Positions 34,620 to 60,925 of a DNA stretch of 64,000 bases are shown piece after piece. Position numbers and translations under genes: made by a program. The notes beneath the pieces are model-generated. The model had not been told where the DNA came from. It ran no database searches and saw only the letters and a program-made list of their open reading frames with translations. Position 1 is the first letter of the stretch. The number at the start of each line of letters is the position of its first letter. Origin of the DNA: an uncultured Treponema sp. (GTDB lineage Bacteria; Spirochaetota; Spirochaetia; Treponematales; Treponemataceae); assembly GCA_946535985.1 (NCBI GenBank), contig CAMNDY010000002.1:1-64000 (forward strand), read 5' to 3'.

Positions 34620-34626
34620 AATTTTT

Positions 34627-34715
34627 CCTCCGCCGGCATTATCCGGATCAGGTTTTGAGGGTATATTCTCAGCCAGGTCCACTCAACGGGCAGCCTAGCA
34701 CCCCTTTAGATTAGG
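34627..34715 (-). promoter_or_regulatory. TPP riboswitch (THI element) upstream of thiBPQ
   Basis: On the minus strand the conserved aptamer parts appear in order: GGGGTGCT, GGCTGAGA, ACCC, ACCTGATCCGGATAATGCC and GGCG. They end in the GGAGG ribosome site (34627-34631) of thiB. Placement of the ribosome site inside the 3' end suggests translational control: TPP binding would hide it. A TATTAT -10 (34719-34724) lies directly upstream. Confidence 0.93.
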
Positions 34716-35947: not shown

Positions 35948-38900
35948 TTACTGCTTCTGGGCAGTTTCCATAAAGCCTGTATCAGTTGATGGACGGATTT
36001 CGTAGCCTAGAACAGGGTTTTTGGTACCGTTGCCGTAAACAGAACCGTCGGTACTTGTGTTACCAGTTTCATCTGCATGTGAATTTGTACCGGTTGTCGA
36101 GTCTTTGATTACACCTTCTGCATCTTTCCATACACCAACATTAATGCGGTCTTTAACTGCATTACTTTGGGTTGGAATTTCGGTTACTTCCCAATAGCCG
36201 GTAAACATGTCGTTTACAGCTCCTGCAACTACACTGTCTTGAGCTTTACCCAAGTCTGAAAGATATGCCATCTTAGGGCCAGAACTACCGTAATAGCCGA
36301 TATATGGAATTACTTTTCCGTTGGTTCCTGCAGCATCAAGAGCAACATCAAGAGTGAGGTTTGAACCAACAATTCCGTTTGAGTCTACAATGCATGATTC
36401 AACAGATGTATCCAAGTAACTGTCAAGTTTTGCATAACATACATCACCGGAGTCACCATCATAACCTGCAAAATGGATACTTCCGTTTGGGGCAACTTTT
36501 ATCTGGCAGTACATACCGGCATCGGAGAAGATTTGCATAGCATCATTCCAAAGACCATTAGGACCTTTTGTACCAGAAGTTCCTGTAACAAAATTGCCGT
36601 CAGCGGTAATATCTTTTTTATTATATGTATACCAAAGTGTCTTGTTTTCCTTATCGTACCAGGTAAGAACGACTATATCATATTTTGCGTTGCCAGTACC
36701 TCCCGCATTAGGAAGAACATCTATTGAAACATAAGGGCCTGCATTTCCAAGAGCTGCGGAATTTGTTATACCTGACTCGGCAATAATCTGGAAGTCTGTA
36801 ATGTTATAATAATCAAGTTCACTATTTCCCGCTTTGTCCACTGTTGAAGATTTTCCATTACAATAACCATATTTATATTTATCATTTAAATAACTTGTTC
36901 CTGTGAAACCATCAATATAATCTGTGGTATTATCTGTTTCTGGGTTTGCTCCCCACTTGAATCTTATTTCCTGATTCAAATGGTCAAAATATGCAAGATA
37001 AACTGTTGCACTAGTACCTGAACCACTTACAGCAATACTTGGGCTTTGAACTCGATTTTTGTCTATATATGTTGTTGTATTATAAGTTCCGTCTTTTAAT
37101 CCAAGCTGGCCTATCTGTTCAACACGAAGATGTTTTCTAGGCAGTTGTTTTGGAGTTTTATCTTTATTAAAAGCCTTTGTTCCCCAGTCAGTTGTATTAC
37201 TTGTTCCCCACAGACTAGACATAAAGGCAAGTTTTGAGTTACTAAAGTCTGTGTTAATATCTCCACCAAGCGCAGTTCCATAAGTATTTCCTTCACTATC
37301 ATAGGCAAAGCCTGTTGCACTAAAATTATCGTAATCTCCTAACCATAACTGATATGAATTAGTCCTGTTTGCCATGCTGAATCGTCTTGTACCACTTACA
37401 TAGGCAAAACCAATTACACCGGCACCATCTCCAGTTTGTCTAGGATTAATCTTCATTATTGGGTCAAAAATGGCTCCACTTGCAGCCGGCTTTGCAGCTT
37501 TATCATTAAACTTCCATACATCAAGAATAACATCATCTGTAAGCATGTAGTTATTCTGCTGATTTGGCTTACGGTTGTAGAAGTTACTGAAGGTTGTACG
37601 GGTACCTGCAAGTCCAGCATCTTCTGCTTCTGGCACTGTTGCACCATAGCTTCCCTGAGCGTCATTCCAGTTTTTGTTGTTAAGACTGATTACCTTTGCA
37701 CCTTCAGCACCTGCTTCTACATAAACAGGGCCACTTATAAATGCAGAAATGTCTGTTACCGGATACAACGTAAAGCCTTTATATGAATCATAGTCATTGA
37801 TTTTTGTGGCAGCACCAAGAGTTGCAGTATGTGGTGTAGCGGCGCTATCGTACAACTTTCCATCTGCAAGGTTGAATCCATACAGGTAAATTGTTTCTGA
37901 AGAAGCTACAGGATAGTGTCCAAGAGCAGTTCTATCATATTCCGAAGAATCTGCCTTCTTTGATTTTGTAGAAAGCATTGTCTTAATTCCACGGATATAT
38001 GGAACTACGTCAATTGAATAAGCATCTGTGTTATTTGCAGTATTTTGTGTGTAACCTACATTTCCGCCACTCAAAGAAGGCTTACCCTTATCTTTTACTC
38101 CAACTGTAATATTAATTCCAGCTTTTGGAGTAATACCCATTGCTTCTGTGTCTATTTCCATAGTCCAGTGAACTACATGGCCGTATTCCTGGCTTGCATA
38201 AGGAAGTTCAAAATCATCATCTTTGACAATTGTATTTCCCTGTTCATCTGTAGGAAGATCATAGCCAGCATCTCTATATTCACCATATGTTGCATGACTT
38301 ATATGTGTAGTCCACATAGTTACAGTTGTTGCATTTGCACCTTCACCAACAGTTTTTGTTCCTGATTTTTCTTGCCAGTTTCCATAAACCTTGTTGTTCG
38401 AAGCATCAAGCGTAAAGTATTCTGCTATAGTAACAGCGTTTCCATTGTTAAAGCCTGGGATTGTTACATAAAGAGAATCAAGCAAAGAATTATCCTGTGC
38501 AATACCTTCGAGTTTTACTGCACCAGAAACCTTTGGATTTGATGAATTAACACCTGTTGCGTTTGCAAGATCTGTAGAAAGTTCAATGTGTCCCAAATCG
38601 GAACTGTTATTCTTGAGAGAGTTCTTCTCTGCACTCTTCCAGTAGAATGGAATTATCTTGTTCTTAGCAGATGTTGAATCAAGCAATGCAACATTCATGA
38701 TTACATTCATTGTGGCACTTTGAGAAGTAGTTCCATAATTAAGACCTGGAGTACTATCCCAAATTGTGAATGAGAATTTCTGATTATTAGCATCGCCAGA
38801 ATAAGGTCCGTTTTGGGTTTCTTTTAGATTTGTAAGTAAATCTTTTACTGTTATCTTTATTTCAGGATCCTTATCGTCTGCTGTTTGTACAAATTTTGTA

Positions 38901-41900
38901 TCATCGTCTTTTGTACCTGTTCCAAGATCTACCGGTGAACTAGAACTATAATAAGCATCTGCCCAACCATCACCAGCTGCATTTCGTTTTGCAACCTTAT
39001 AGGTATATCCAACAGTTCCGTTACCACCAACAATTTCCGGCTTGATAACAAGATTACGTTTTATTGTTATTAAACTTATTGGATTTGCATCTGTAGATGT
39101 TTCTGGGAATGTAATATTTGTTACCTTTTTACCAGATAAATTGTATCCTTTTTCAAATATATTATGATAAGAAACAAATTCTGCTTCATCAACTTCACCA
39201 TTTCCATCTTCATCAGTACCAATCCAGGCACCTGCAATTCTTGGTGCATTATTCTGAACCTTTGCTTCGGCAGAAAGAACTGTAGCATTTCCCGCTTTAT
39301 CAAATACTACATAATGAAGTGTTACAGGACCATCGCTTATATTCTTTGAGTTAATACTTGCCTGCCAGGTACACTTTGTACCAACTTTGCTTAAGCGTTC
39401 CGGCATAAGGTCTTTATCGGTACCTGTTGGAAGATTTGCAGCTTTTATATAACCATAACCATAATCATCGTCATAGTTCAAATCACTAGAAGGAATGTCT
39501 TCTGGGATTGTGTTGTCTATTACATTTGCAAAAGCAAACATTGCAGTTGCAGCAGAACCAGGATTTTCAGAAAGAGTAATTGTATTATTTTCAATTGATT
39601 TTATTAAATAAATAAAACCATTAACTTTTGCGAGTCCGCCTTCATGAATATTGTCATCAACAGCAGATAATGTAAGTTTGTTGTTTTCTACGCTGCTTAC
39701 AGCAACTTTCTGCCAGTATAAGCCGTCTTCGAAGGCTCCAACATTGCCTTTTAGTGTAGAATAATCTGTAAGGTTTCCGTTGTCCTCTATTCCGCTGCGA
39801 ATCATAGGGTCAATGATTTTTGTTTTCTGTCCTGTTATATCTCTTGTAAAGTAGAATGCAACACGTTCTACACCTGTCTGATTTACGTTATTTACACTCT
39901 GTTCAAAAGCTTGTGAACTAAAGGTGTAGAAACCATTTTCATTCATAATTTCAAGATTATCAGCAAGAGGTGTTACTACCGGTGCTTTGTTATCGCAAAT
40001 TACAGAGAATAGCTTTGTAAATTGTTTTTGTGCAGAACTTCCATCTTTTGCTATGAATGATACTTCTGATTTTATTACAGCATCCGTATCATCAGTTCCA
40101 ATTGGAAAACAGAAAATATAACCTGATTCGCCATCTTTTTCATAACTAATGGTAAAGGAACCGTCTGTACCAAAATCTTTATTATTATATGTGATTTCAC
40201 TTATTCCGTTGTCATCATGAACTGCACCAACTACATACCATTTACCGGCCAGGCTCATTGCATCGGTATAATCACGTATAGCAGAATAATTATTAATTGT
40301 ATACTTTCCAGCATTGGAACCAGTTGTAGTTACAGTTATTTTTTCAGTCACGTTATCATCCCATTGAACAAGTTTAACTTCCTGTTCCAATTTAGGAATT
40401 GTATCATCAATTCTTATTTTTTGAGTTTTTGCACTACTTATGAGGCCAATATTGTCTACAGCATAAAGACGAATATTTATTGTCTTTCCACTAAACTCTT
40501 TACCTTCATTAATTTTCTGATTCCATACATCACCATTTGCATCAATCTTAATACCATACTGATTAGTTAAAACTGGAATAGAAACAAGTGTATATTTTCC
40601 ACCAGCATCAGATTCAAGGAAAGCTTTATCCGCATCATCCCAGTCGTTTTCATCGCTTTCGTCATCATAATTTGTATCAATCTGCATATAAACTGTATAT
40701 GGCTGAGCTTTACCCGATACAGAACCAATAACATTAATTGCACCACCTAAAACAGGTATTTTATCAGGATTATCAGCATCTTTCTTTGGATAGCTGAATT
40801 CTACTTTTGGTCTGTCTCCCTGTGGATCTACCAGAATTTCATAAGCCTCTTTAGAAACATTACCGGAAGCATCTTGAGCCATAAGATGCAGATAAAGAGG
40901 TGTAATAGTGTCATACCATTCATTTGGATTTGTACTTTCAAGTCTGGCTTTTGTTGTTTTACCCAATGTTACAAGCCAGGTATTAACAAGGTCTGTATGA
41001 TTAGGGCCTAAAAGGCTTGAGCCGTCAAAATAAACATAGAAGTTTGAAGTTGTATAATCGGTATTTGCGTCATACTCTGAATATGCGTCATCTGCAAGAG
41101 GGGTTGCCTCATCATCAACTGCATAATATAGTTTTGTAAGTTCATTTGTATAACCAACTGCAGTAATTACACCGCTGTGTTCCTTGCCTGCTTCTGGAGA
41201 GTCTACAACAATTTGTGGAGCAGTATTATCAAGTTCAAACTGCATTTCTACACTACTAGTTCTTTCGGCGTTATCTGTAGCAATAATTTCTATTGTTAAT
41301 ATACCATCTTCTGGTATATATGATTTTCTGCAATCAATTTTAGCCATATAATATTCATCTACCTTGTCTAAGGTGTAAGTTTCAACTAGTGTTTCATTAA
41401 TTGTTACTTTTGCTTGTACAGTTTTTACTCCAGTTCCCCCATCGGTTGCTTTTACGCGGAATTTCAAAAGCTTTGATTCGCCACCAGGAATTATGCTGAT
41501 TGAATTTGTTGGACTCCAATCGCCCTCATTTTCTGGATTTGCAGAAGAACTAGTTGAAAGCTTTATTTCTTGAAGTTCTGGAGACATTACATCAAGCAAT
41601 GCATAGATTTCCGGCTTTTTGCTTTCATCATCGCCTAACTTATGACCATCGGCATCTTCTATATAAACTCGTTTCCACTTGGTTTCGTCAGAAGATGTGA
41701 AAATTGTGCCATTATTATCTGTTATTTTGAATTCTACAGTTTGTTTTCCATCATTTGTAAGAGAGAATTTTCCACTTCCATTTTTAAGTTCTATCTCTTT
41801 CCAACTATCATTTTCACCTGTTCTGAATTCTGCCTTTTGAATTGCCCCATCATCATCTGTTATGTTTACATAAACCTGTTTTTCTTTAAGAAGAACAGGT

Positions 41901-44900
41901 TCAGAGATAGTCATTGCAGAAAGATTAATTCCTTCTGTTACAAGTTTTATAACAGGACGGTCTGTATTGCGGTCGATTTTGTATTGTACAGGAGATATTG
42001 TGCTTGGGTTTCCCGCAACATCTGTTGCAACAGGAAGAATCCATACAAACTGAGATTCGTCATCATCTTCTATCAACTCATCAAAACCAGCATCAAATTC
42101 AAAGTTATAGAGCATTGAAACAGTTACGTTATCAACACCTTCTTTCTTAGTCTTCCACTTTGTATAACTAGTGAGGGCTGTTGGAGCAGGGGCTGTTTCT
42201 GTTGCTGCTTTTGAATAATAAATTGAAACTTCTTCAGGACTGCTGCCTTCATCTGATGAAGTACCGGTTATTGTGTTCGCACCGTTTAACGATGAACCAT
42301 TAGTAGGACTTATGTCCGCAACAACAGGAGGTACTGTATCAATCTTCAATACAGCAATCTTTGTTGGATTAGGTGCAATGTTACCTTTACCTTCGTGTTC
42401 TGCCCAGTCTTCGGCTTCAAGATAAATTTCGGCATTGTCGCCAAGAGGTCCAAACCAGTCATCTGCCTGGCCAACTTTTGGAGTGAGTTTTAAAGTCCAT
42501 TTTGCATAAGAAGCAGCACTTGAGAATGAGAACTTTTTGACATTTGTAAGATCAACATTATCTATAGTTGGATTAGTTGGGGCATATCCCGTATAAGAAA
42601 ACTCTCCATAATTATTTTCGAATTTTACTGTTACTGCACTATCATTTAATGGAGAAACTTCATTTCCATTTTTATCTTTTGCAGTAATTGTTAGGGTTTT
42701 ATTATTTTTATTTGGGACATACAATACATTATCTTCTAATTGTGCATTAATCTTAGATGAATCCTCATTCTCAATAATATAATCAGATAAATTACTATCT
42801 ATAACGACAGTTCCTTTAATAAGAACTCTAAGAGATTTTAAACCAGCGGCTTCATCGTAAACAGAGCCCTCTAATTCTATTGGCTTAGAACCGTTTGTAA
42901 GCTGCTCTGTGCTTGTGGCAACTACAGTAGGTGCTGTCTGATCTACTTGGATTTTTAATATAGTTATCTCCCCTTCATTTCCACAATTATCTATTGGGCG
43001 AAGCAGAAGGTAATTGATTTTTTCTGATGAAACAGTATTAAAGCCCGAAATATTTGCTGTGGCTTTTGTTGCCTTTCCACTTACTGTTCCAATTGTATTT
43101 CCGTTTGAATCAAGATTTGAATTGTAGTAAGAATAATCTTGATCTGGTTCTGGAGCGAAGGTTCCGCTTGCAGACAAAGCTGCTATAGAAACATCAATAT
43201 CCTGAGTGCCATTAAAATATGCTTTGAGTGTATCATTAGTTATACTTGCAGTAGCATTAACCGAATACAGTTTATATTCAAGTCGGGCAAGTCCACTACG
43301 CTCTACATTCAATTCTTTATCATTATCATCTACATAAGTTGTTACACTTATAGAAGTCATTCTTCCGTAAGAAGATTCACTGTAGCGTCCTTCTCCAAGA
43401 TTAAGGTTATTGAATTTAATAACCTCATTTCCTCTGAATGTATATCTGTTATCAGGGCACTCACCTGTTATAATTACAGGCGCAGTTTCATCAAACTTCA
43501 AATAGATTGTTTTTGTTTCAGTGTTTCCTTCAGCACCTGCATCTTTTTGTTCTTCTGTAAGAGCAGCTTTTTCTTCATCAGTAAGATCAATTTGATCTTT
43601 TGCAATAAGAGTAATTGTTGCATCTGACCAGCCGTCAAAACTATCAATATCAAAACTCCATGAAGAAGGATCACTACCACTAGCAGCAGGAGTTAATGAG
43701 TGTTCACCATCTGTTACAGAAAGCGCAACGCTCTTTAATACGTTATCATCTGTAGCAATTCCACTTATAGTAATTTTTCCACCAACAACTCGCTTAATGT
43801 AATATTCATTCTCAGCATTTTTATAAGCCTGAGTTGTTTCATAAGTTTGAGTAGATTCATCAATAACTTTTACCTGAGTTATTGAAATATTTTTAATTTC
43901 AGGAGCCTTTTGGTCAACAATAAATGTACAACGGTCAACTTCTGTTTTGTTTCCTGCAACGTCAGTTCCAATAATTCTGAACAAACCGCTTACGAATTTT
44001 TCTTTTGGAATTGTGATGTCGTATTCATCTGTAGACTCACCTTCTGAATCGGTTTTCTGAGTGCATACAACATCCTGAGTTATATCTGTATTACCAATCA
44101 TGAACTGTAATGGTACAGTTCCGCTGGCGCTATCAGAATATGTAACTGTGAAAGCTTTATCTACAGTTTTATTTACATAAACATTTCCTTCTGGGCCATG
44201 TGTAACTTCAAGAACAGGTAAAACTGTATCAACTTTAAGGCTTACTTCTTTTACTTCAGATTCATTTCCTGCCTTATCTACAGCCTTTATATAAAGCTTT
44301 TGTTCCCCTGCATCTGCAAAGGTTATAGTTGAACTCCACTGATTTGCCTGATCATCTGCAGACATATTAATCCAGGTTGGATTTGCACCTTCTGCCTCCG
44401 GATCATCTTTTGTACAGCGTACATTAACTACAGAAGAAGTTTGATCTGCAGTTGTAACAGTGAATTCACCATAATTTGTATGGAACCATTTTTGAATAGT
44501 TGAAATATCCTGGCCTTCAAATTCAACTTTTTCAATAGAAGGTGTATCGTTATCAATTGAGAATGTAATTGTTTGATTTGTTGCAGTTCCAAGCTTATCT
44601 TTTGCAGAATATACAAGCTTATAAGTTCCGCCTTCTTCAGGTTTTACAAATGTATCTGTCCAGTCGGTACCTTGTGCAATCTGAGCAGCAGTAGCGGAGA
44701 TAGCAGAAGTAAGATTTGAAAGGCAAAGTGAATCTACCTTTGTTTCTGTTTCACCTGCAACCTTATATACATCTCTTGAAAGTGTTACAACTCCACTACC
44801 ATCTTTAATAGTTCCGGTAATTGTAACATTTTTATTATAGTAAGTATCAGCAGTTGTATTAGGAGTTTTGATGAGGAACTCTGGAGCGCCATTATCTTTT

Positions 44901-47524: not shown

Positions 47525-47538
47525 TTTCGTCCTCCTTC

Positions 47539-50500
47539 CTATTGCATTTGCGCAGTTTCGATGCGGCTGTTTGCGGTATCTTTAAGTACTGAATAAGAAA
47601 CGAGTGGATTTGCGGTGCCATTGCCGTAGAATTTGCCACTTCCTGCAGCCGCGTTCGGTATTCCCGTTGTTGAGTTCTTAATCTGTCCTTTTACGTGTTG
47701 GTTATCACCGGTTGTAACTGTATCTATGTATTTCCAGACTCCAACATTTATGCGGCTGTCAACGTTCATAAGACGTTTATAATCAAGATCATCAATTTCA
47801 CTTCCAGTTGGAATATATGTTACTTCCCAGTTTCCTGTGAACATATCACTTTCGGCACCATTTGTTGTATTACCATTTACCGGATATGCAAGCTTTGCCA
47901 TGTTTGAACCGTAGTATGAGATATATGGAACTGGTGTTGTTCCATCGCTTGCAAGAGCAACATCCATTCTCATGTGAGAACCAGCATTACCGGCAGAATC
48001 AACTGTATATTCATTATAGGTGTCGCTATCATATGAACTTAAATATGCATATTTTAAATCACCATATTGTGAATCATAAGCAGCAATATGAATACCACCT
48101 TTACCATCTACTTTTACAGAACAGTATTCGCCTGCACCTGTGAAGATTGTTTTAGCATCTTCCCAATCTTCTCTATTTAATCCTTTATATGCATCTTTCT
48201 TAGTAGTGGTGCCATTTTTTGTTGGCCAAGCTGCATAATTATCTGGATTCTCATTATATGAATACTTTAATGCTTTTGCTTTTGAGTCATACCAAACAAC
48301 AACGACAACATCTTCATCTGTTAGGCCACCTGTACTTCCCTTTGGAATTACGTCAATGTCAACAAATTCACCAGCTCCACCAAGAGGGGTTCCTGTATAA
48401 GCATACTGTGGATCTATTATTGTTTCTCCTGCAGCGTCTGTTGTTGTAGGAAGATTTGTTGTAGCATCTGTTGCAATTACCTGAGAATACTGGCAAGTAT
48501 ATGGATTATTATTATTCCAAGATGATGCATTATTATTTATAGGACGGAATAAATCTGTATCACTCCAATTTTTATTTTTTATGTTAGTAACAAGTTTATT
48601 CATTGAACCGTATTTATAACGAATTTCATCATTAAAACTATCGTAATACACCATATAAATATTTGTATCAACACCATTAGGAGAAGTTGCAATATTAGGG
48701 CTTCTTACCTTATAACGTAAATCCATATATTTACCTGAATTGTCACGTTTTTTGTTTTGATTTACATATTCAAGATAGATTTCCGTTGAATCGCCTCCAC
48801 CAGCTGGTAATATTTCAAAATGCAAACCATCTCCTTCGTTTCCTCCTGCAGACATACTAAAGGCATTACCTTTTGTATCATAAGCTAAGGCAGCGGTAGT
48901 TTGAGAATCTTTTTGACTACTATATTTATCTTTACCCTTTGTATAAGAAGTAGTACCACCTTTAGGTCTTGAGAAGCCTACTGGTCCATCCAGGAATGCA
49001 AAACCCACTATACCATTGTAATTAGAAGCAGGATTTATCTTCATAGTCAATTCATCAATACGACCACCAGCAGAAGGCAAACCTGCTTCACTATTTATAT
49101 TCCATACATCAAGTTTCACATCATCTTTTAATGTATCGTTATTATTTCCATTAGGCTTGCAGTTATAGTCAGGACTATTAGAATTCTTGTTGTTTAAGCT
49201 TTCAACATCGCCAACCTTTACATAAACCTGACCACTTGTAAATGCAGAAATTCCAGAAACAGGATACAATTTAAAGCCTTTGTATGAGTCGTATTTTGTA
49301 AACACATCTAATGGATCATCATCATTTTCTGTTTTGGCAGATCCAAGGCTAGCCATATGTTTTGATTTATCTGCTGCAACTGCAGTTTCATATGCACTAT
49401 CATACAAAGTACCACCTGTAAGATTGAATCCATACAGATAAATTGTCTCTGATTTATTTACAGGATAGTGTCCAATCGCAGTTCTGTCATATTCCGAAGA
49501 ATCGCTCTTCTTTGACTTTGTAGAAAGCTTTGTCTTAATTCCACGGATATATGGAACAACGTCAATAGTATAATTATATGTATAAGCAGAGCTACCGTTA
49601 TCTCCTCCACTCTGAACTACAGGATCTGGTTCAACATATTCTGTCTGACCTTCAGGTATTGTTCCAGTTTCGTTGTAATCAAATTTATTGCTTGTATATT
49701 CTACATTTTCACCATTAAGAGTAGGTTTACCTTTATCAAGAGCCCGTGCTTTAATTGATATATTAGTTGCAGGAGTTATTGACATAGCTTCTGTATCAAT
49801 TTCCATTGTCCAGTGAACAACGTGACCGTATTCCTGGCTTACCTGCTCTACAGTATCATCTGCGTTTTTACCTTCTGGGATTTCGCCAATATAACCTGCA
49901 GCTTTAAATTCTCCATAAGTTGCATTTGTTATTGAAGCAGTTCCTGTCCAACTACCATCATTATTATAAGTTGCAATTGTTATTGGATTACCACTATTAT
50001 AGGTTGAAATTGAAACCGAAAGATCTTTGAGCAGAATATTATCCTGCGCAATACCTTCGAGTTTTACTGCACCAGAAACTTTTGGAGTTTTTGAAGTTAT
50101 TGTATCTGGAAGATCTTTTGAAAGTTCAATATGTCCCAATTCAGAATTGTTATTCTTAAGAGAGTTTTTGTTTGCACTCTCCCAGTAGAATGGGATTATC
50201 TTGTTCTTAGCAGACTTTTCATCATTCAACTCAACATCCATTACAATATCAATAGTTGCAGTCTGACTTTCAATTGCAGCTGCTCCTTCATTATCCCAAT
50301 AAGGAGTTGAATCACTTATTTTAAAGGTGAACTTCTGGTTTTTTCCATCTGGAATTTGAGGTGAATCATTTTTAAGAGTTATAAAATCTTTTACATCAAG
50401 TGTAATATTGCTATCTTCCCAAATATAATTTTGTGAAGCATCGTCATCATCAACAGTTCCGCTTGTTCTAAGCTGTTTAGAAGTCTCCAATGTAAAGTAT

Positions 50501-53500
50501 GGGTCGTCCCAATTAGTATTACCGCTGTTTCGTTTTGCAACACTATAGGTATATTTAATTTCTCCATTACCACCAATAATTTCAGGGATAATTACAGTTT
50601 TACCTTTAATCTTAAGCGCAGAAACAGGGGTTGCTGCTGTTGAATTAGTTGGCAAAGAAAGAGAAGTTATTTTTGAACCACCGTTATAGCCTTTGCTTTC
50701 TTTATAAAGTTCATGATAAGTGGTTATAAACTCATCACCTTCTACTTCATTATTTCCATTCTCGTCGGTACCAAACTTAACTCCTGCAATACGAGGAGCA
50801 TTATTCTTTATAACACCTGTTTTTGTTTTTACCGTAGTAGCATTACCAGCCATATCAAATACAACATAATTAAGAGTTATCGGTCCATCGCTGATATTCT
50901 TAGAGTTGATGCTTGCTTCCCATGTATATTTTGTACCCTCCTGAATAAGGCTTTCTATCATACGGTCGCCATCATCATCAAGTCCGTCACCCTTGGTATA
51001 GCCCCATCCATATTCGCTACCATAATCTTTGAGATTACCTTCGCTTTCGCGGGTAGGATTATCTACAACGTTAGCAATTGCAAACATAATTGAACTTGCT
51101 GCACCAGGGTCACCAGAAAGTGAAACTACGTTTGAATCTACACCTTCGATTCTGTAAATTACACCGTTTATTTTTGCAAGTCCGCCTATGTGAACATTTT
51201 TAAGATTTGAATCAGCAGGAACTGTAACAGCAGAACCAGAAACACTATTAACACTTACAGTCTTCCAGTATAAGCCTGAATCCAGAGTAAGGCCATCTCC
51301 ATCTTTATAACTCAATACATTGCCATCTTTGCCTGTACGAATCATAGGGTCAAAGATTTTCTCTGGCTGTTTGTTAATATTTCTTGTAAAGTAGAATGCA
51401 ATTCTTTCTACTCCAGACTGATCAACAGTACCAACTTTTTCTTCGCTTGCTTCACCGCCAAAAGTATAAACTCCATCACTATTAACAATTGTTGCATTAA
51501 AATCAATATTTGTTGCTACAGGAGCTTTATTATCATACAAAACTGTAAAGTTGGCCTCGGCAGAACGGGCGTCAGAATCTTTGTTTTCTTCGGCACTAAA
51601 CTCTATAGAGTATTCACCTACTGCATCATCTGTTGTATCTCCAATAGGAAGGCAGAATAAATAACCAGAGCCAGAAGACTTTTGTAATGTTACAGGTCTT
51701 ATATATGCGCCAGCTTCTGTATCACTTCCTTCATAAACTTTATCTGCAGCATCTTCTGGTATAATAGCTCTTATTAATGTTCCACCATTAACTTTATAAG
51801 AAACAGAATGTATACCACTATCATCTGTAACTTTACCAATTAAATACCATTTGCCTTTAATACGTTCGCCTTCTATGTATTCACGAGAGGCAATTGTTGC
51901 ATTGGCGGCAAGTTGAATATTGTCGTTGCTATCAAGAGCAAATCCGTTTTTGCCATTATAATTGGTTGCCCACTGAACAAGTCTGATATTCTGATCTATT
52001 ACAGGAAGATCACTATCAATATCAATGTTACGAGCTTCAGGACTACTTGTAAAACCATGAGTATCTGTTGCGTATGCCCAGATCTTTACAGCTTTGGTTT
52101 CTCCTTCTGATGCAGGATTTAATTCTCCACCTATATTGATTTTCTGGCTCCAGCTTCGGCCAGAAACTCTTATTCTGATTGCGTAATCATTTATATCTGT
52201 GTTATCTGCAATTGTGGTTACAACCTGTTTAGATTTCATATATCCAAGTTCATAACCTTTTAATTTAAGAACAGCAAAGTCATCGGCATCCCAGTCACCG
52301 TCAGAATCACAGTCTACCTGGAGCCATGCGTAATCTATACCATTTGTACCCGAAGCAGTACCAATAATTGTAGGAGAACCTCCAAGTGTAACTCGGTTTG
52401 TTCCTCCCGCTTTATCTTCGCTTGGGTAACCAATTTTAACTTGAGGTCTGTTTCCTAATGGATCAAGACGAATTGGATATGAATATCTTGTAATATTTCC
52501 GGCCTGGTCAACAGCCTTTACATGGAAATACAATTTTACAATATCATCAAAAGCATTTGTTGAAGAACTTAAATCTGCATCTGTTGTAATTCCAATATCT
52601 TTAATCCACTGATTAAGAGTTTTTGAATGTCCGGTTGTTCCAGTTTTTCCGTCGAACCACAAGTACATACTTCGCATTGAAGTGGTACTAAATTGTGTAT
52701 ATGTACAAATCTCCTTTAGTGCCTGGGTAGGATTAATTGTATGTCCAGATTTATCTGTTGTTGGCAGATCAACAGGAGTTTTTTCATTATCGTTGCTGTC
52801 GTATGTTACAAAAGCAAATGATTGATTTTCTGCATAGTTATCTGGCGAAACATCAATAGGAGAAATTGCATAATACAAGGTTGCAATTTCGGAAATTGAA
52901 GTATCTATAGTAACATTGCCTGTTAAGTTTTCATCAGAAGCAGGAGAATTAACAGTAATCTCCGGTAACTTATCATCAAGCTTAAATGTAATTGCATCAG
53001 AAGACTCTTTGCCTGCTACGTCTGTTGCTTTTACTGTAAGGATATAAGAAGAGTTATCTTTTTTTGCAGAATCTGCTCTTCCGTTAAGAACAGGAATTAC
53101 AAGATAGTAAATACCGCCTTCTTCCGAAGGAGTTTCAAGAGATGGTTTTTCTGTTAATTCGACTCCATCAAGTGTTGCAGAAAGTTCAACCTTTGCGATA
53201 CCACTACCATCATCGGAAGCTCCTGCTTTTACTCTAAGATATTGAAAATCAGGACCTCCAAGAATATTTCTTGAGAAGCCGCTTGTATCGAATTTAGCTG
53301 CCTCGATTACCGCTGCTTTTTCTGTTTCACTTAATTCATTAAATCCTTGTGGCAAGTACCGTACCTCTTCAATTGTAAGTACAGGAGGCATTGTATCAAC
53401 ATCAACATAAACTACAGGAGTTTCGTAACCATCTTCGGTTGTTCCATATTTATGATTATCTGAGTCGGCAAGATAAATTGTATTTAATTCAGAGCCATTT

Positions 53501-56500
53501 GCAGGTGCTATAGATGTAAATACACCACCCTTTTTATCTGTAATCTGGAATTCAATCTTCTGCTTTCCTTCATCAGAAAGTTTAATTGAAGCACCATTTG
53601 TTGAGATTGTTGAAATTATTGAAGTATCAGTAATTTCTGTCCAGCCAGGATTTTCATTTCCTTTTATAATGCGGTATTCAACTTTCTGAACACCATCATC
53701 ATCGGAAACTTTAAAGTTCAAAGTCTTTATTTCCAAAGGTAAATAGTTTGAATCTGAAAGCGGAGATACAGTTGTATCTGTTGGTTTTGTTACCAGCTCT
53801 GTACTTGTAATAGTAACAACTGGACGGTCTGAATTTCTGTCTACAGTAAAGGTCTTGTAGGCAGCTGAATTGTCTTTCTTGTTTACAGTTACATCATTAT
53901 CAGCCCAGTTAACGTTGCCAGCTTTATCTTGTGAGCAGACAAGAATATGAACTTTTCCAGAAACCGCATCTCCAATGAAGTCATTAAAATTCACATCCTT
54001 TACTTCAAAGTTATAAATTTGCTGTACAGTAGCACCGTATTCATATTCATCACCAGAAGGATCATTTTCACCCTTTGAGGCTGTAGTAATACTCTTTATG
54101 AGTTTCCAGCCGCTAGAGGCATCTGCTGAATCAAGTTTATCTGATGTTTTAAGAGAAGCAGGAAGTTTTCCGTTTGCGTCGACTGCTGTAGAATAATAAA
54201 TTGAAAGGCTCTTTGGTGTGTGATTTTCGGTAATTGTACCTTTTATTGTCTGTTCACCATTCAAGGCAAGATTTGCATTTGAATTTGTAATTGCAGAAAC
54301 AGGCAATGTTTTATCTATATCAAGAGAAGTAATTACAGTTGAAGCTTTGTTTCCGCTGCCGGATGCATCTTCGGCCCAGTCTTCGGCTTCTATAGCAATC
54401 TGTACTACAGATTTATTTAATGCTTTAAACCAGGTTCCGTTCTGAGGAGTAAGATCGAGTGTCCAGTCTGCAAAGGTTGGTCCATTTGCAAAGGAATCTG
54501 GAACACCTGTGCCGCTTGCATTTGTATAATATGCATTATATGTGAGAGTTCCGTAGTTGTTTGTAAATAAAACAGTACTTGCCGTATTATTCTTTGGAGA
54601 AACATAATCTCCCAATGAATTTTTGGCAGTTATTTTTAAAGTTGCATTATCTTTGTTTGGTACATAGATAGTTTCAATTCCATCTTCATCAACTAATTGT
54701 GCATTAATTTCTTCTGTTTTTTTACTAGAAACAATTACATTCTTCAAACATCCGTCAATTACAACTTTACCGTCAACATAAAGGCGGAGTGCTTTTAAGC
54801 CGGAACCTTCGTCTTTATATTTTCCAGTTAGTTGCTGCAAACTGCTTTTTCCATTCGTAAGCAAAGAAGTTGGATTTGACTGTGATGCATCTGATACAAC
54901 CTGTGGAATTGAATCATCGACCTGAATAAGGAGTGCAAACCAGTCTCCTTCGTTACCACAGTTATCTATTGCACGAACAAATACAATATTTGGAGTTCCG
55001 GCAACTGTACTTTCAAAACCACTTAGTGTTCCTTTTCCCAGAGTACAAGGGATTTCGGTAGAATCGTTATAATGTGTATAATTGCTTGACTCAATTGCAA
55101 GGGTTCCGCTTGTACAATCAGCATCTGCAGGAACAGAACCATTATATATTCCTGTTATGACATTTTTATAAGTGTCAGTTACCTTTGAAACAGGAAGCAT
55201 CTTATATTCAATTGTTGAAACTCCGCTGCCACCTTCTTCACCAATGAAGGTTACAGTAAGAGCAATAGAAGTTTCTCGGCCAAAAGAGGCATCGCTATAG
55301 GAACCGGCTCCAATTTTAATTCCACCATATTTCCAAACATCTTTACCTCTTAATTTATAACCGGCAGGGAAAGGATTTGATGAGTCTCCAGTGTCTGCAT
55401 CGTTTGTAAGCACAGCAGGGGCGTCACTATCAAAAATCAATTCAATATCGGCGGCGTTTTTAGTATTTCCGGCCTTATCAAAAGCGGTAATTGTAATAAC
55501 AGCATCCTGTGCAGCTGAAGTATTCTGGCATGAAGACAAATCAATATCTGTAAAAGTCCAGCTTGTCTGGGTTGATTCCTCTTTATATACAACCTGCTCT
55601 ACAACCTGATCTACCTGACCGTCTTCAGTTCCAGTTACTGCTACAGTTCCAGTTACTGTAAGAACTGTTTTATCAATACCAGAGTTATCTGTTGTAGTTC
55701 CAGTTATTGTAAGCTTTTCATCAGAACGATTTCTTACATAGAATTTTCCGTCTGAAGTTTTGTAAGACTCTTTGAAGCCCTGTCCCTTTATTCTGCCAAC
55801 ATTAATACCACTAATTGCAGGAGGAGTGCTATCTTTATTGAGCTTCATTATTTTTATAAATCCACCGTTTATATCATTTCCGGCATGGTCTCTTGCAGAA
55901 ACAATAAGGTCTCCGCCAGCATCATAAGAAGACTTGTCAATTAAAGCTACAAAAGATTTAATTGTTTTTGTGTTTTCATCAGGGAGGTTATTTGAATCAA
56001 GACCATATGTAACTTCGTATGGATTTATTTCAACATTCTGTCCCTGGTCATTCTGAATTGTTTCTTTTGCATTAAGAATTGTTGCAATATCAGCCTTATT
56101 TACAAAACTCTGTGAATAGTATTTTACTTCAGGAGTAATGCCTGTATTAGCACCTGTATTAGCAATCGTAAACACTAATTCTTCTATACCACTGCAGGCG
56201 TCACCATCTGTATAATTTCCGTAGAGTACAATATCCTTTGTGTTTACATAAGCAGTATCACCTGGCTCAAGAATAGAACCATCCTGGCTTTCATCTGCAC
56301 CTTTAATCTGGTACCACTTTACTTCAAGAATAGGCTTTGTTTTATCAACCTTTGTTTGAATTGTTCTATCTATATAGTTACCAACATTATCTGTAACACG
56401 AATACAGAAGCGGACATCATCACCATCAGGGAATGTAATATTTGCACTCCACTTTTCATCACCGTTTGCTTCTTCGCCCAAAACTGAGTGAGTCATATCG

Positions 56501-59500
56501 CTAAAGACAGTTTCTGCTGTTACAGGATTATCAAATGTATAAGTAACGCTCTTTACACCAGAATCATCATCTTTAACCATTACTTCAACAGAAATATTGC
56601 TCTGTGTAATGTAAGAATCAATACTTTCTGCATTCTGTGCAACATCGTTATCGCCAATCTTAATAATGCCATCAATTACAGGTTCATCAACATCAACAGA
56701 ATATTCAATCTTGTATTCAGATTCCTGTCCATAAATATCTTTTGCTTTATATTCAGCCATATATTTTCCGCTTGTAGAAGGAAGTGTTATTTCATCAATA
56801 AATGATTTTGCAGTTACAGACGCAGGTGTTGCTGTTAAATTTGAAGTATGTGTAGTAACAAAGCCACCTTCAGAAGCAAGACCGTTTCCATCAGAAACAG
56901 TACCGTGTACAGTGAGTGCCTTTACATCGCCAGTTTTGCTTCCCATTAACCAGGTAGATTCATTCAAAACAGGAGTTACTGCACTAAATACAGGAGCACC
57001 GTCATCAATTGTTACATAGAATTTTTGTGCAAGAGAATCATAATTTGTTTCTTTCTTGCTTGAATCAGAAGCAGAAGCAACAGCATAAATATCTTTTGCT
57101 TCTACAGAAATTTCATACTGACCTTCAACAGAAGGAAGTGTATATTCAAAATCATAAAGTTTAGTTCCAGATGCAAGAGCCTTTGCAGGAGTAAGAGCAG
57201 CAGGAGTTCCACTTGCACCAGGGCCCACTTTCTTACAGGTTACAACAACACTGCCAAGACCATCATCATCTTTAACAGAACCATAAAGCTTGTTTCCCGC
57301 AGTAGAAGGGAACATGTTTGTACTTGAACTAAGAGAGCTTACAGCAGCAACTGTCTTATCGGCATTAGAAAGATCAAATACAGGCTGGTCTTTTTGCTGA
57401 TCAATTACAATTGTTTTCTGAGTAACAGCAACGTTGTCTACCTTATCCTGTGCACTTACAATAATATCAAAAGAAGCTTCTCCGGAACTACCGCTTGTAA
57501 GCTTTGTTGTTGCAAGTTCAAAACTCCAGGATTCATTAAGAGGAATTTCTACATTATTAAAGCTTTCTACAAGGGTCTGAGTAGAGCTGTCTTTAATAAC
57601 ATAACTTAAAGCCTTTAAATCACTTCCTGTGTTTCCGCTGTCGGCTGCAATTCCCGAAACTTTGATTTTACCGTTTACAGTGCCGCTACCATCATCAGGA
57701 GTAACCGAAATGATTTTTATTTCCGGTTTTTTGTTATCTACATAGAATTTTACATTCTTTTCGCCAGGTGCTGCATCGCCCAAATCCTGAGCACGAACTG
57801 TTACTGTATAATAATATTTGCTTTCTGCAGCAGGAACAAAAGTTTCACCAGACTTTGCTTTTACGCTAAGAGTAAATGGATATTTGTTGTGGCCCTGCTC
57901 TTCCAGAGATTCAACAACGCAATCAAACTTGCTCAAATCAAGATTACTGATTGAACCGTCTTCAAGATTTGTAATAGAAATGCTTGAAACCTGAACACCG
58001 CCATCATTCTTTGATTTTAAAGGAACGGCGTCTGTTGCTACAGTTCCTGTGATTGTAATTCCAGTTTCATTTACAGCTTTGCCAAGAACAATATCTTCTG
58101 CAGGAGAAAGAATTGTAACTTTTGGACTGTTATTACTTGTAGAAAGATTGAACAGATAAACATAATCATTTTCCGGTTCAAGATCTGTTTTGTTACGGTC
58201 TGTACCTGTAACAATCATTCTATATACATGCTTAGATAACAGCTCATAATCTTCGGTGTTAAGTGTGAAAGTATATGTCTTTTCTGAATCGTCGGCACTT
58301 TCATCCCATTTTGATTCACCCTGAGGATCAATAAGACTTATAGGATTAAGACCTGTAACCGGGAGTTCATAATAATTTGTATTTGAATTATACTCGCCCA
58401 AATCATAGAAATCGGCTTTTACAGTTTTTGGATCCGGATAACTTGCATCGCGACCTGCTTTAATTGAAAGAATGAGAGAGCTACCTGCAGAATATGATTT
58501 TATCTGTGCTGCATTCATTGTTGCAGAGAAACCGTATTCATCAAGAGCCCAGGTTGGATTATTATGCGGATTAAGACTCAATTTTGAGAATGTATCGCGT
58601 GAAGTAACTTCATTATTTAAAATATCAAAAGAAGAAGCATAGTTTCCTGTCTTTGAAAGAAGCTCTGTAATGCCTTTTATTTGTGTATCATCATAATTTT
58701 CGCTCTGCCCCTTTAAAATATCTTTAAGGCGTGGAGCAGTTAGAGAATAATTAACTGATAATATGTTCTGGAAATCGCTGCTTAAAAGATAATACTGATT
58801 TGTCTGGTTTCCGTGTCCACTACCCTCATCACCAGGAGTCTGATAAACAAGAGCGCTATCTTCAAGCATGAAGCTGCAGTAATAATACCTGTCTACATTA
58901 TCATTGTTCTGACCATAGATTGTTAAATATCTTTGGTGAGCGTCTGAAGCGGTTTTGTTTTCATCATATTTAGCAAGAATCAGAGGATTACTTGAAGACA
59001 TAGCATTAAGTTCTGCAGAATCTGTAATCTCTATTGATTTAACTTCTGAATCTATAAAAGTATCTGATGAATTGTCATATTCCCTATAGTAAAGTACAAG
59101 TTTTGAAGTTTCGTGATCTTCTGCAATATCACCCGAAAGTTTTAAAGAACGACCGTAAATTGTAGGAATATCATCTCCGATTGCAAGAGGTTTACTTACA
59201 ATTAAAACCGGCGCGGTATTATCAATTGCAATAGGACTGGTAGCGATCTGTGATTTCTTTTTAGAACCATCGTATGCAATTGCATTTATAATATAATTGC
59301 CATCCGGGAAATCCCACTGCTCAAAACTGTCAAACTCATCTGTTGTTTTTGAAAGGTCGCTTTTATTAAGAAGAATAGTCCAGCTTTTTGCATCTTCGCT
59401 TAATTCGGTATCATAAGGACCAAAGCTTTCGTTTGTTTCGGGGTTTGTAAGAGTTACAGAAACAGCAACAACATTAACGTCATCGTTACAGTTTCCGGAA

Positions 59501-59679
59501 ACTATAAAAGAGTCGCGGGCTACAGCATTTTTTGGGGGATATGAAATGCCAACAGTAGGTATAGAAATATCTACCGCAGCTCCAAGTCCAACTTCGCAGG
59601 AATAGAAAAGAAAAAGTAAGGTTGTCAAACACAAAGCAGCCGCAAGAGCAACTGTTGTTTTTTTCTTAAAGAACACCAT
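47539..59679 (-). CDS. Giant Ig-repeat lipoprotein, 4046 aa, paralogue of the next gene
   Basis: A lipoprotein signal (LFYSC, Cys28) and then the same order of modules as its neighbour. The N-termini are closely alike (PTVGISYPPKNAVARDSFIV against PTVEISYPPKNAIVRDMFIV), and so are mid regions (GHVVHWTMEIDTEAM) and C-termini (IETAQMQ against METAQKQ). This is a tandem duplication followed by divergence. The two genes form one transcription unit of ~23.7 kb. GAGG is 8-11 nt before the ATG. No catalytic motif is seen. It may be surface-exposed by analogy with other spirochaete lipoproteins. Confidence 0.82.
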   Translation of the reverse strand: MVFFKKKTTVALAAALCLTTLLFLFYSCEVGLGAAVDISIPTVGISYPPKNAVARDSFIVSGNCNDDVNVVAVSVTLTNPETNESFGPYDTELSEDAKSWTILLNKSDLSKTTDEFDSFEQWDFPDGNYIINAIAYDGSKKKSQIATSPIAIDNTAPVLIVSKPLAIGDDIPTIYGRSLKLSGDIAEDHETSKLVLYYREYDNSSDTFIDSEVKSIEITDSAELNAMSSSNPLILAKYDENKTASDAHQRYLTIYGQNNDNVDRYYYCSFMLEDSALVYQTPGDEGSGHGNQTNQYYLLSSDFQNILSVNYSLTAPRLKDILKGQSENYDDTQIKGITELLSKTGNYASSFDILNNEVTSRDTFSKLSLNPHNNPTWALDEYGFSATMNAAQIKSYSAGSSLILSIKAGRDASYPDPKTVKADFYDLGEYNSNTNYYELPVTGLNPISLIDPQGESKWDESADDSEKTYTFTLNTEDYELLSKHVYRMIVTGTDRNKTDLEPENDYVYLFNLSTSNNSPKVTILSPAEDIVLGKAVNETGITITGTVATDAVPLKSKNDGGVQVSSISITNLEDGSISNLDLSKFDCVVESLEEQGHNKYPFTLSVKAKSGETFVPAAESKYYYTVTVRAQDLGDAAPGEKNVKFYVDNKKPEIKIISVTPDDGSGTVNGKIKVSGIAADSGNTGSDLKALSYVIKDSSTQTLVESFNNVEIPLNESWSFELATTKLTSGSSGEASFDIIVSAQDKVDNVAVTQKTIVIDQQKDQPVFDLSNADKTVAAVSSLSSSTNMFPSTAGNKLYGSVKDDDGLGSVVVTCKKVGPGASGTPAALTPAKALASGTKLYDFEYTLPSVEGQYEISVEAKDIYAVASASDSSKKETNYDSLAQKFYVTIDDGAPVFSAVTPVLNESTWLMGSKTGDVKALTVHGTVSDGNGLASEGGFVTTHTSNLTATPASVTAKSFIDEITLPSTSGKYMAEYKAKDIYGQESEYKIEYSVDVDEPVIDGIIKIGDNDVAQNAESIDSYITQSNISVEVMVKDDDSGVKSVTYTFDNPVTAETVFSDMTHSVLGEEANGDEKWSANITFPDGDDVRFCIRVTDNVGNYIDRTIQTKVDKTKPILEVKWYQIKGADESQDGSILEPGDTAYVNTKDIVLYGNYTDGDACSGIEELVFTIANTGANTGITPEVKYYSQSFVNKADIATILNAKETIQNDQGQNVEINPYEVTYGLDSNNLPDENTKTIKSFVALIDKSSYDAGGDLIVSARDHAGNDINGGFIKIMKLNKDSTPPAISGINVGRIKGQGFKESYKTSDGKFYVRNRSDEKLTITGTTTDNSGIDKTVLTVTGTVAVTGTEDGQVDQVVEQVVYKEESTQTSWTFTDIDLSSCQNTSAAQDAVITITAFDKAGNTKNAADIELIFDSDAPAVLTNDADTGDSSNPFPAGYKLRGKDVWKYGGIKIGAGSYSDASFGRETSIALTVTFIGEEGGSGVSTIEYKMLPVSKVTDTYKNVITGIYNGSVPADADCTSGTLAIESSNYTHYNDSTEIPCTLGKGTLSGFESTVAGTPNIVFVRAIDNCGNEGDWFALLIQVDDSIPQVVSDASQSNPTSLLTNGKSSLQQLTGKYKDEGSGLKALRLYVDGKVVIDGCLKNVIVSSKKTEEINAQLVDEDGIETIYVPNKDNATLKITAKNSLGDYVSPKNNTASTVLFTNNYGTLTYNAYYTNASGTGVPDSFANGPTFADWTLDLTPQNGTWFKALNKSVVQIAIEAEDWAEDASGSGNKASTVITSLDIDKTLPVSAITNSNANLALNGEQTIKGTITENHTPKSLSIYYSTAVDANGKLPASLKTSDKLDSADASSGWKLIKSITTASKGENDPSGDEYEYGATVQQIYNFEVKDVNFNDFIGDAVSGKVHILVCSQDKAGNVNWADNDVTVNKKDNSAAYKTFTVDRNSDRPVVTITSTELVTKPTDTTVSPLSDSNYLPLEIKTLNFKVSDDDGVQKVEYRIIKGNENPGWTEITDTSIISTISTNGASIKLSDEGKQKIEFQITDKKGGVFTSIAPANGSELNTIYLADSDNHKYGTTEDGYETPVVYVDVDTMPPVLTIEEVRYLPQGFNELSETEKAAVIEAAKFDTSGFSRNILGGPDFQYLRVKAGASDDGSGIAKVELSATLDGVELTEKPSLETPSEEGGIYYLVIPVLNGRADSAKKDNSSYILTVKATDVAGKESSDAITFKLDDKLPEITVNSPASDENLTGNVTIDTSISEIATLYYAISPIDVSPDNYAENQSFAFVTYDSNDNEKTPVDLPTTDKSGHTINPTQALKEICTYTQFSTTSMRSMYLWFDGKTGTTGHSKTLNQWIKDIGITTDADLSSSTNAFDDIVKLYFHVKAVDQAGNITRYSYPIRLDPLGNRPQVKIGYPSEDKAGGTNRVTLGGSPTIIGTASGTNGIDYAWLQVDCDSDGDWDADDFAVLKLKGYELGYMKSKQVVTTIADNTDINDYAIRIRVSGRSWSQKINIGGELNPASEGETKAVKIWAYATDTHGFTSSPEARNIDIDSDLPVIDQNIRLVQWATNYNGKNGFALDSNDNIQLAANATIASREYIEGERIKGKWYLIGKVTDDSGIHSVSYKVNGGTLIRAIIPEDAADKVYEGSDTEAGAYIRPVTLQKSSGSGYLFCLPIGDTTDDAVGEYSIEFSAEENKDSDARSAEANFTVLYDNKAPVATNIDFNATIVNSDGVYTFGGEASEEKVGTVDQSGVERIAFYFTRNINKQPEKIFDPMIRTGKDGNVLSYKDGDGLTLDSGLYWKTVSVNSVSGSAVTVPADSNLKNVHIGGLAKINGVIYRIEGVDSNVVSLSGDPGAASSIMFAIANVVDNPTRESEGNLKDYGSEYGWGYTKGDGLDDDGDRMIESLIQEGTKYTWEASINSKNISDGPITLNYVVFDMAGNATTVKTKTGVIKNNAPRIAGVKFGTDENGNNEVEGDEFITTYHELYKESKGYNGGSKITSLSLPTNSTAATPVSALKIKGKTVIIPEIIGGNGEIKYTYSVAKRNSGNTNWDDPYFTLETSKQLRTSGTVDDDDASQNYIWEDSNITLDVKDFITLKNDSPQIPDGKNQKFTFKISDSTPYWDNEGAAAIESQTATIDIVMDVELNDEKSAKNKIIPFYWESANKNSLKNNNSELGHIELSKDLPDTITSKTPKVSGAVKLEGIAQDNILLKDLSVSISTYNSGNPITIATYNNDGSWTGTASITNATYGEFKAAGYIGEIPEGKNADDTVEQVSQEYGHVVHWTMEIDTEAMSITPATNISIKARALDKGKPTLNGENVEYTSNKFDYNETGTIPEGQTEYVEPDPVVQSGGDNGSSAYTYNYTIDVVPYIRGIKTKLSTKSKKSDSSEYDRTAIGHYPVNKSETIYLYGFNLTGGTLYDSAYETAVAADKSKHMASLGSAKTENDDDPLDVFTKYDSYKGFKLYPVSGISAFTSGQVYVKVGDVESLNNKNSNSPDYNCKPNGNNNDTLKDDVKLDVWNINSEAGLPSAGGRIDELTMKINPASNYNGIVGFAFLDGPVGFSRPKGGTTSYTKGKDKYSSQKDSQTTAALAYDTKGNAFSMSAGGNEGDGLHFEILPAGGGDSTEIYLEYVNQNKKRDNSGKYMDLRYKVRSPNIATSPNGVDTNIYMVYYDSFNDEIRYKYGSMNKLVTNIKNKNWSDTDLFRPINNNASSWNNNNPYTCQYSQVIATDATTNLPTTTDAAGETIIDPQYAYTGTPLGGAGEFVDIDVIPKGSTGGLTDEDVVVVVWYDSKAKALKYSYNENPDNYAAWPTKNGTTTKKDAYKGLNREDWEDAKTIFTGAGEYCSVKVDGKGGIHIAAYDSQYGDLKYAYLSSYDSDTYNEYTVDSAGNAGSHMRMDVALASDGTTPVPYISYYGSNMAKLAYPVNGNTTNGAESDMFTGNWEVTYIPTGSEIDDLDYKRLMNVDSRINVGVWKYIDTVTTGDNQHVKGQIKNSTTGIPNAAAGSGKFYGNGTANPLVSYSVLKDTANSRIETAQMQ

Positions 59680-60017: not shown

Positions 60018-60137
60018 GATTCCCGGGTCAAGCCCGGGAATGACACTACAAATTGCCCGGGAATGACACTACAAATTGCCCGGGAATGACATGTCAAATT
60101 GCCAAGGAATGACAGGACAAATTGCCCGTGAATGACA
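60018..60137. repeat. Family A palindrome followed by 23-bp tandem repeats
   Basis: ATTCCCGGGTCAAGCCCGGG begins the run. From 60035 a 23-bp unit (CGGGAATGACACTACAAATT, then GCC) is repeated about 4.5 times, with start positions 60035, 60058, 60081, 60104 and 60127. Units 3-5 are diverged. The unit starts within the right arm of the palindrome. Confidence 0.85.
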
Positions 60138-60209: not shown

Positions 60210-60857
60210 TTAGAAGAATTTCCACTCTACACCAAGTCCACCGTAAACGGTTTTACGTTTTGGAATAAACTCTGGTATTCCTGTATCAACGCTTTGATTA
60301 TAGGCTTCAATCTGTACATTTCTTTTTTCGAATTCGCCTATAAAACGTCCTGAAAGAACTAAACCAAGATGCTTTGTAAAGTAGAACTTAAAGTCTGCTC
60401 CAGCAATGTATCCCATCTGAAAATCTTCTTTTTTGGCAGAGGCTAAATCGCTTTTAAGAGTTGTGCTGATAGGAATTGAAAAGTTTGGACCTGCACCAAA
60501 GCCGATTGTCAACTTCCACAAATCAAGGTTGAGCCATACCATTGGTGCAAGATCAAGCGTGCGGATAGCGTATTCTGTTTCTCTATCTGTTCCTTTTTCA
60601 TTAAAATTCATGGAACTCTGGATATAATTGGCTTCTGCCTGAATTCCAAGTCCACCAAACAATGCAAAATTTGCATAAGCACCAAAACCTGCATCAAAAA
60701 CCTTTTCTGCAGTAGCTTTTGAAGTTTCTGTCTTGAGATCTGAATCAAGAGCCATATTGTAACCCAAGATTCCACGTGCACCAACTTCAAAATCAAGTGC
60801 AAAAGAAGCGCTTACAAGACAAATAGTGGCAAGAGCCATAGCAATAATCTTTTTCAT
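60210..60857 (-). CDS. Outer-membrane beta-barrel protein
   Basis: 215 aa from the ATG at 60857, which has an AAGGAG site and starts the signal peptide MKKIIAMALATICLVSASFA. The mature chain shows OMP-like strand alternation (FEVGARGILGYNMAL, LDLAPMVWLNLDLWKLTIGFGAGPNFSIPI) and ends in Phe (GGLGVEWKFF), as the barrel-assembly signal requires. The family is similar to opacity-type porin-like barrels. Strong promoter and terminator make it a single-gene unit. Confidence 0.78.
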   Translation of the reverse strand: MKKIIAMALATICLVSASFALDFEVGARGILGYNMALDSDLKTETSKATAEKVFDAGFGAYANFALFGGLGIQAEANYIQSSMNFNEKGTDRETEYAIRTLDLAPMVWLNLDLWKLTIGFGAGPNFSIPISTTLKSDLASAKKEDFQMGYIAGADFKFYFTKHLGLVLSGRFIGEFEKRNVQIEAYNQSVDTGIPEFIPKRKTVYGGLGVEWKFF

Positions 60858-60896
60858 AGTTAAAAAACTCCTTCCCTCTCCATAGGGTACATACTT

Positions 60897-60925
60897 ATAA
60901 TACACCAGAAAAGCTCTGGTTACAA
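60897..60925 (-). promoter_or_regulatory. Promoter of the outer-membrane barrel gene
   Basis: On the minus strand: TTGTAA (60920-60925), 17-bp spacer, and TATTAT (60897-60902). It gives a ~35-nt leader carrying AAGGAG. Confidence 0.6.

Follow-up and report, generated by a model that had tools for sequence, protein, structure and literature searches.

A tandem pair of giant predicted lipoproteins from an uncultured Treponema as candidate adhesins with an Ig-like body and a lectin-like propeller

The Lig proteins of Leptospira are lipoproteins, and their repeats are of the Big_2 type. LigA and LigB are reported to act as adhesins at the cell surface, where they display 12-13 Ig-like repeats in a long row, and LigB has a 772-aa largely disordered extension at its end (PMC12183334); OmpL47 is reported as surface exposed (PMC2698987). 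A very long row of Ig-like domains is found in the 7651-aa adhesin of Mobiluncus mulieris, a cell-surface protein with intramolecular cross-links in its domains (PMC10619420). The PLL-type lectins of Photorhabdus (PLL, PLL2-5 and PHL) have sugar sites lined with Trp (PMC6943638). The proteins described here recall each of these systems in part. Searches of a library of open-access papers showed no description of them.

The window, that is, the whole stretch of 64,000 bases that was analysed, contains two intact minus-strand open reading frames, P0002 and, downstream of it, P0001, which jointly occupy 23,732 bases, or 37%. Their features are as follows.

47539..59679, minus strand: P0002, 4046 aa, upstream gene of the tandem and first predicted giant lipoprotein
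59596..59679, minus strand: P0002 signal peptide and lipobox with the expected lipidated Cys28 (FYSC-EVGLG), from sequence
47542..49128, minus strand: P0002 propeller, from residue 3518, placed by alignment to P0001
47525..47538, minus strand: 14-nt gap between P0002 and P0001 with an AGGAGG-like, ribosome-binding-like site, GGAAGGAGG, from sequence
35948..47524, minus strand: P0001, second predicted giant lipoprotein (downstream gene), 3858 aa
47450..47524, minus strand: P0001 signal peptide and lipobox with Cys25 (FNGC-GNVGLG), from sequence
38135..47410, minus strand: P0001 Ig-like body, 15 repeats in an in-house repeat model at E<0.01, boundaries approximate
37712..38005, minus strand: P0001 beta domain at the junction of body and propeller, strands 77-172 of the AlphaFold model
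35951..37528, minus strand: P0001 seven-bladed beta-propeller, residues 3333-3858, from AlphaFold, Foldseek and VIA-align
35954..35974, minus strand: last strand of P0001, FMETAQK with the conserved ETAQ, from model strand 752-758 and conservation

The tandem arrangement, the lengths, the 14-nt gap and the share of the window are all as the earlier note had given them, and chance ORFs are ruled out by two open frames of 11.6 kb (P0001) and 12.1 kb (P0002) with counterparts at 76% identity. The spacing makes it plausible that both genes are carried on one mRNA; a promoter scan 5' of P0002 gave no more matches than were obtained in shuffles. As judged from their sequences, P0001 and P0002 are colinear paralogues: BLASTP returns a single colinear match over nearly the full length, which agrees with the common domain order proposed at the outset, and in a global alignment 1486 of 3580 aligned residues (41.5%) are identical. 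Identity peaks just ahead of the propeller, at 62-70% per 100 columns, and drops to 21-38% per 100 columns in the first half of the propeller itself. Both N-termini carry a spirochaete-style lipobox (FNG-C25 in P0001, FYS-C28 in P0002) followed by the motif VGLG.AVD, and by this signal the giants are predicted to be lipoproteins of a spirochaete, as had been thought. The lipobox-proximal segments, which had been called nearly identical, are very similar (22 of 29 residues identical, one P0001 residue left out) and fall short of that description. The motif C..[VI]GLG recurs in 53 of the 95 frames of the giant family, a set that excludes, as Ig-barrels (see below), frames with a terminal F and in which some frames are cut at the 5' end or are duplicates between collections, leaving 90 distinct C-termini.

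Several other features of the window may be recorded here. A TPP riboswitch (Rfam RF00059, 58.5 bits; 34608-34715, minus strand) lies directly upstream of a putative thiamine-type ABC transporter operon (31468-34682). Between the giant pair and the gene of a small outer-membrane barrel (60210-60905) there is a 23-bp tandem array of 4.6 copies (60032-60137), which adjoins a terminator-like hairpin (60019-60041). A palindromic element, CCTGAGC..GTCGAAGG, occurs in three exact copies within coding frames, at 4699, 5138 and 31940, where chance would give ~0.5 even if two mismatches were tolerated; one copy is read as CPELVEG. The minus strand also encodes a 797-aa protein (4158-6551), marked by 27/54-bp repeats in its DNA and by an extended acidic repeat region (EEVEALDDAEPVEEIEEV). 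On the same strand two overlapping genes (8167-12404) code for a likely outer-membrane protein of 366 aa and for a second protein, of 1046 aa, in which Ig-like repeats and a C-terminal domain of OmpA type can be made out by eye.

Most of each giant is an Ig-like body, in which the in-house model detects, at E<0.01, 15 repeats for P0001 and 11 for P0002, with a spacing of ~100 aa in P0001 where detection is good. If the whole body consists of such ~100-residue units, there would be ~30 Ig-like domains per body, and the stalk that they may form could reach 100 nm or more. Pfam gives only weak matches to Big_13 and Big_7 in the body, under the curated cut-offs, and no Big_2 match at E<=1. The NCBIfam model of the OmpL47-type domain (NF047446) scores 41.3 bits in P0001 against a cut-off of 40, over one Ig-like repeat, and has no match in P0002; the whole-protein OmpL47 equivalog (NF047441) reaches 40.9 bits in P0001, far under its cut-off of 250, so that the likeness to OmpL47 is at the level of the repeat only. 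These matches and the in-house repeats agree with the Ig-like body of the earlier note. The giants resemble the Lig proteins in being spirochaetal, in their rows of Ig-like domains and in their lipoprotein signal, but they are two to three times longer, have different Ig families and end in a propeller. Their very long row of Ig-like domains is shared with the adhesin of M. mulieris, for which we know of no lipid anchor or propeller. Between body and propeller, P0001 has a beta domain that looks, by eye, like IPT/TIG, although no family model confirms it. Further on, an Asn-rich segment, YNRxPNxxNNxLTDD (~37541-37606, minus strand; model residues 208-229), is well conserved yet predicted to be disordered.

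An AlphaFold model of the last 759 residues of P0001, made with an alignment of 21 sequences (pLDDT 76.9, pTM 0.81), places a propeller in the C-terminal ~525 residues, where the list of strands from model residue 234, from which the blades were counted, reads as seven blades; this is in keeping with the earlier impression of a propeller-like part distinct from the Ig-like body. The 16 highest-scoring rows of VIA-align are all PLL-type seven-bladed lectins, with Z from 25.7 down to 23.4, the next unrelated chain standing at 22.8, and in the top row 301 residues are aligned at 3.0 A with 8% identity. Foldseek likewise has 6rgg (PLL2) as the best match, at E 2.5e-6, and 48 of its best 50 rows are lectins, sialidases/neuraminidases or other glycoside-acting propellers. 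The PLL lectins have the same seven blades of four strands and are the best match over the whole propeller, but they are free-standing proteins of ~370 aa, whereas the propeller of the giants has long inserts and ends a giant lipoprotein, and there is no match in sequence: neither P0001 as a query nor a C-terminal profile of the 21 sequences (E<=10) found a PDB chain, PLL chains included, and Pfam returned no family for the 21 C-termini, only single weak and unrelated matches. The C-terminal domain has a known fold and belongs to no described Pfam, NCBIfam or PDB sequence family. The combination that the earlier note could not place can therefore be placed by fold, with the PLL lectins closest, and not by sequence family.

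It might be supposed that the propeller is an enzyme rather than a lectin, a glycoside hydrolase or lyase with a sialidase, GH43, GH62 or GH93 fold that is carried on the stalk and cuts plant or mucus glycans. Such enzymes are indeed among the Foldseek matches, hydrolase and lyase propellers reach Z 18-19 in VIA-align, and the relatives come, by their titles, largely from rumen and gut samples. However, the PLL lectins score clearly above these enzymes in VIA-align, no Pfam glycoside hydrolase is matched at E up to 0.1 in the 21 members, and an Asp-box-like motif is present in the last 540 residues of only 4 of the 95 frames, all of which makes an enzyme very unlikely in our view. Propellers are also a common scaffold for protein binding, and as unrelated eukaryotic ones are among the other propeller proteins that reach Z 20-23, the fold is compatible with that function too, which, like the lack of sequence similarity to lectins, speaks against the lectin reading.

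The two proteins end alike, in ETAQKQ (P0001) and ETAQMQ (P0002), as had been pointed out. In the 21-row alignment, which consists of the window pair and the 19 foreign loci that match best and so reports conservation among close relatives, no other stretch of the 759 residues has four invariant columns in succession, and the strand of ETAQ ranks first of 40 for conservation. An exact ETAQxx end is present in 72 of the 90 distinct C-termini, and conservation of the end across relatives agrees with the earlier note. In the model the motif is part of a blade strand that is well ordered (block pLDDT 92) and falls at the expected third strand of blade seven, which would leave the strand at 234-245, after TDDV, to complete the blade and close the ring. 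Completion of a blade by a strand from the other end of the chain is a usual way in which a propeller ring is closed. Since the strand with ETAQ comes last in the final blade and is conserved above all others, the 'unusual end' is most simply read from the model as ring closure. The idea of ETAQ as a detached tail is ruled out by its position inside model strand 752-758.

The same conservation could be taken to mean that ETAQ is more than a structural strand, being a sorting or surface-export signal that is read by an outer-membrane machine, and a title cited in PMC2987989 has OspA crossing the borrelial outer membrane unfolded, in a passage that can start at the C-terminus. We give such a signal little credence, as the ordered blade strand argues against it and there are family members without ETAQ, for example frames of 2150 aa (G132) and 2108 aa (G149) in another genus of the family.

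The giants are widespread in Treponema. Of 118 genomes of the genus, 76 match when one protein serves as query; by profile, giants are found in 125 of 195 genomes of the family (12 of 20 genera) and 71 of 296 genomes of the phylum (33 of 138 genera). When 84,980 species genomes were scanned with a pattern, 113 relatives came to light. Every title among the matches listed, 74 distinct loci, is that of Treponema or of a spirochaete group; isolates with giants include T. zioleckii, T. ruminis, T. bryantii, T. saccharophilum and Treponema sp. JC4. Two cultured rumen treponemes, T. bryantii B25 and T. ruminis RU1, are among the carriers. The 53 frames with a recognised lipobox range from 2121 to 5644 aa (median 3734), as would suit a stalk that varies in length behind a common tip. 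Two open frames far larger than the window's pair, of 10197 aa (G057:C15:128544-130643) and 7564 aa (G101:C97:969-3152), likewise terminate in this propeller. There are two copies in the window's genome, and tandem copies are frequent: 27 contigs bearing more than one giant were picked among the matches listed (G234, with frames partly on opposite strands, being left out), and 25 of them have same-strand giant neighbours less than 1 kb apart, with up to four in a row. P0001 is 76.7% identical to one gene of a related genome (G026) and P0002 76% identical to the next gene there, and in two others (G112 and G093) identity to the window pair is 42-45% within a type and 33-38% across types, so that each of the two has its own counterpart in three related genomes. 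The excess of same-type over cross-type identity shows that the pair is old and that P0001 and P0002 are distinct and have been kept as such, which fits with different specificities of the two paralogues.

New here is a protein of ~2000 aa with Ig repeats and an OmpA-like barrel, the Ig-barrel, which co-occurs with the giants and adjoins them in many genomes. In one relative (L057) the protein next to the giant has 2039 aa; it starts with a signal peptide, contains Big_7 repeats and has F as its last residue. The window's genome (G000) has a counterpart that is not beside the giants:

contig C33, 14399-20431: Ig-barrel counterpart (L118), 2011 aa

The last 170 residues of this counterpart are modelled as an 8-stranded barrel (block pLDDT 65-93; pTM 0.49 for the whole 321-aa piece), with VIA Z of 14.1 for a Legionella porin, 14.0 for OprF, 13.9 for NspA and 13.0 for OmpA. 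The translocator barrel of type V secretion has 12 strands, and an autotransporter is ruled out for this OmpA/NspA/OprF-like barrel of 8. The Ig-barrel was present in 10 of the 11 genomes first examined and then in 91 of the 118 of the genus, where 74 genomes have both proteins, 2 a giant alone, 17 an Ig-barrel alone and 25 neither. It thus accompanies 74 of 76 giant-bearing genomes and 17 of 42 others (Fisher p 2.3e-12, a value that ignores kinship and the completeness of assemblies, many of which are drafts); as the giants were sought here with one protein query, 'barrel alone' may hide giants, as in G108, where one was found by profile. Giant and Ig-barrel are both absent from G137, a genome of the family with a size of 1.1 Mb. 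Among 25 genomes with both on one contig, picked among the matches listed and with gaps taken from match ends and open-frame lengths, the Ig-barrel lies within ~500 nt of a giant in 16, of which 15 have it upstream on the same strand, while in G049 the two genes converge. The distance to the closest giant is 1.8 to 65 kb in the remaining 9, apart from G108, one of these 9, whose overlap is unusable. G132 and G149 have the order barrel-giant with ~20 nt between, and G121 has giant-barrel with almost no gap. In the window's genome the Ig-barrel gene is followed by a 386-aa gene and an HD-domain (HD_5) gene, and by lengths and ends only, genes of similar size and termini stand in the same order in G077 and, after one intervening gene, in G121. 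The HD-domain neighbour suggests, as no more than a lead, control of the adhesin system by cyclic-di-GMP.

It is probable, we believe, that P0001 and P0002 belong, as paralogues that have been stably maintained, to a family of giant adhesins found throughout Treponema, with a lipid anchor, an Ig stalk, a lectin-like tip and the Ig-barrel as partner. The lipoprotein signal suggests that they would be lipidated and held in the outer membrane, with the Ig-like stalk exposed at the surface and the propeller at its tip binding carbohydrate in the gut, be it on mucus, on plant fibre or on another microbe. The major surface function suggested in the earlier note may be of this kind. As the propellers of the two paralogues differ, they may then provide two specificities, and the giants would act together with the Ig-barrel outer-membrane protein that is encoded beside them in many relatives. 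The 25 genomes of the genus that lack both proteins count against an adhesin system of this kind, as does the separate place of the Ig-barrel gene, on another contig, in the window's genome. Moreover, a barrel of 8 strands has no room for the passage of a protein across the membrane, and the Ig-barrel does not explain the route of the giants to the surface.

The latter point, and the fact that we know of no export route for the giants, would be less troubling if the giants were periplasmic or envelope-spanning, with the lipid at one membrane, the Ig body in the periplasm and the propeller as a protein hub that holds the Ig-barrel or other parts of the envelope. The co-occurrence and adjacency of an Ig-barrel with its OmpA-like barrel and N-terminal Ig chain would suit this arrangement, as would the match of the fold to protein-binding propellers. 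Nevertheless we regard it as unlikely: a chain of 3000 Ig residues seems long for the periplasm, and expansion to four diverged tandem copies, together with absence from part of the genus, is more like surface diversification than a structural core. It is tempting to speculate further on a two-part, spirochaete-specific apparatus in which the Ig-barrel docks or guides one to four giants and ETAQ both closes the ring and is read by the export or docking machinery, such that only properly ended giants are displayed, but we hold this to be quite unlikely.

Taken as adhesins, the giants would work like other giant Ig-stalk adhesins, with the Lig proteins as their nearest spirochaete analogues, and they are members neither of Lig nor, by sequence, of the PLL lectins. 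A gene pair that takes up so large a part of the window and is kept in tandem over several species, yet has no described family, raises the questions of how spirochaetes put such large lipoproteins in place and what it is that rumen treponemes attach to.
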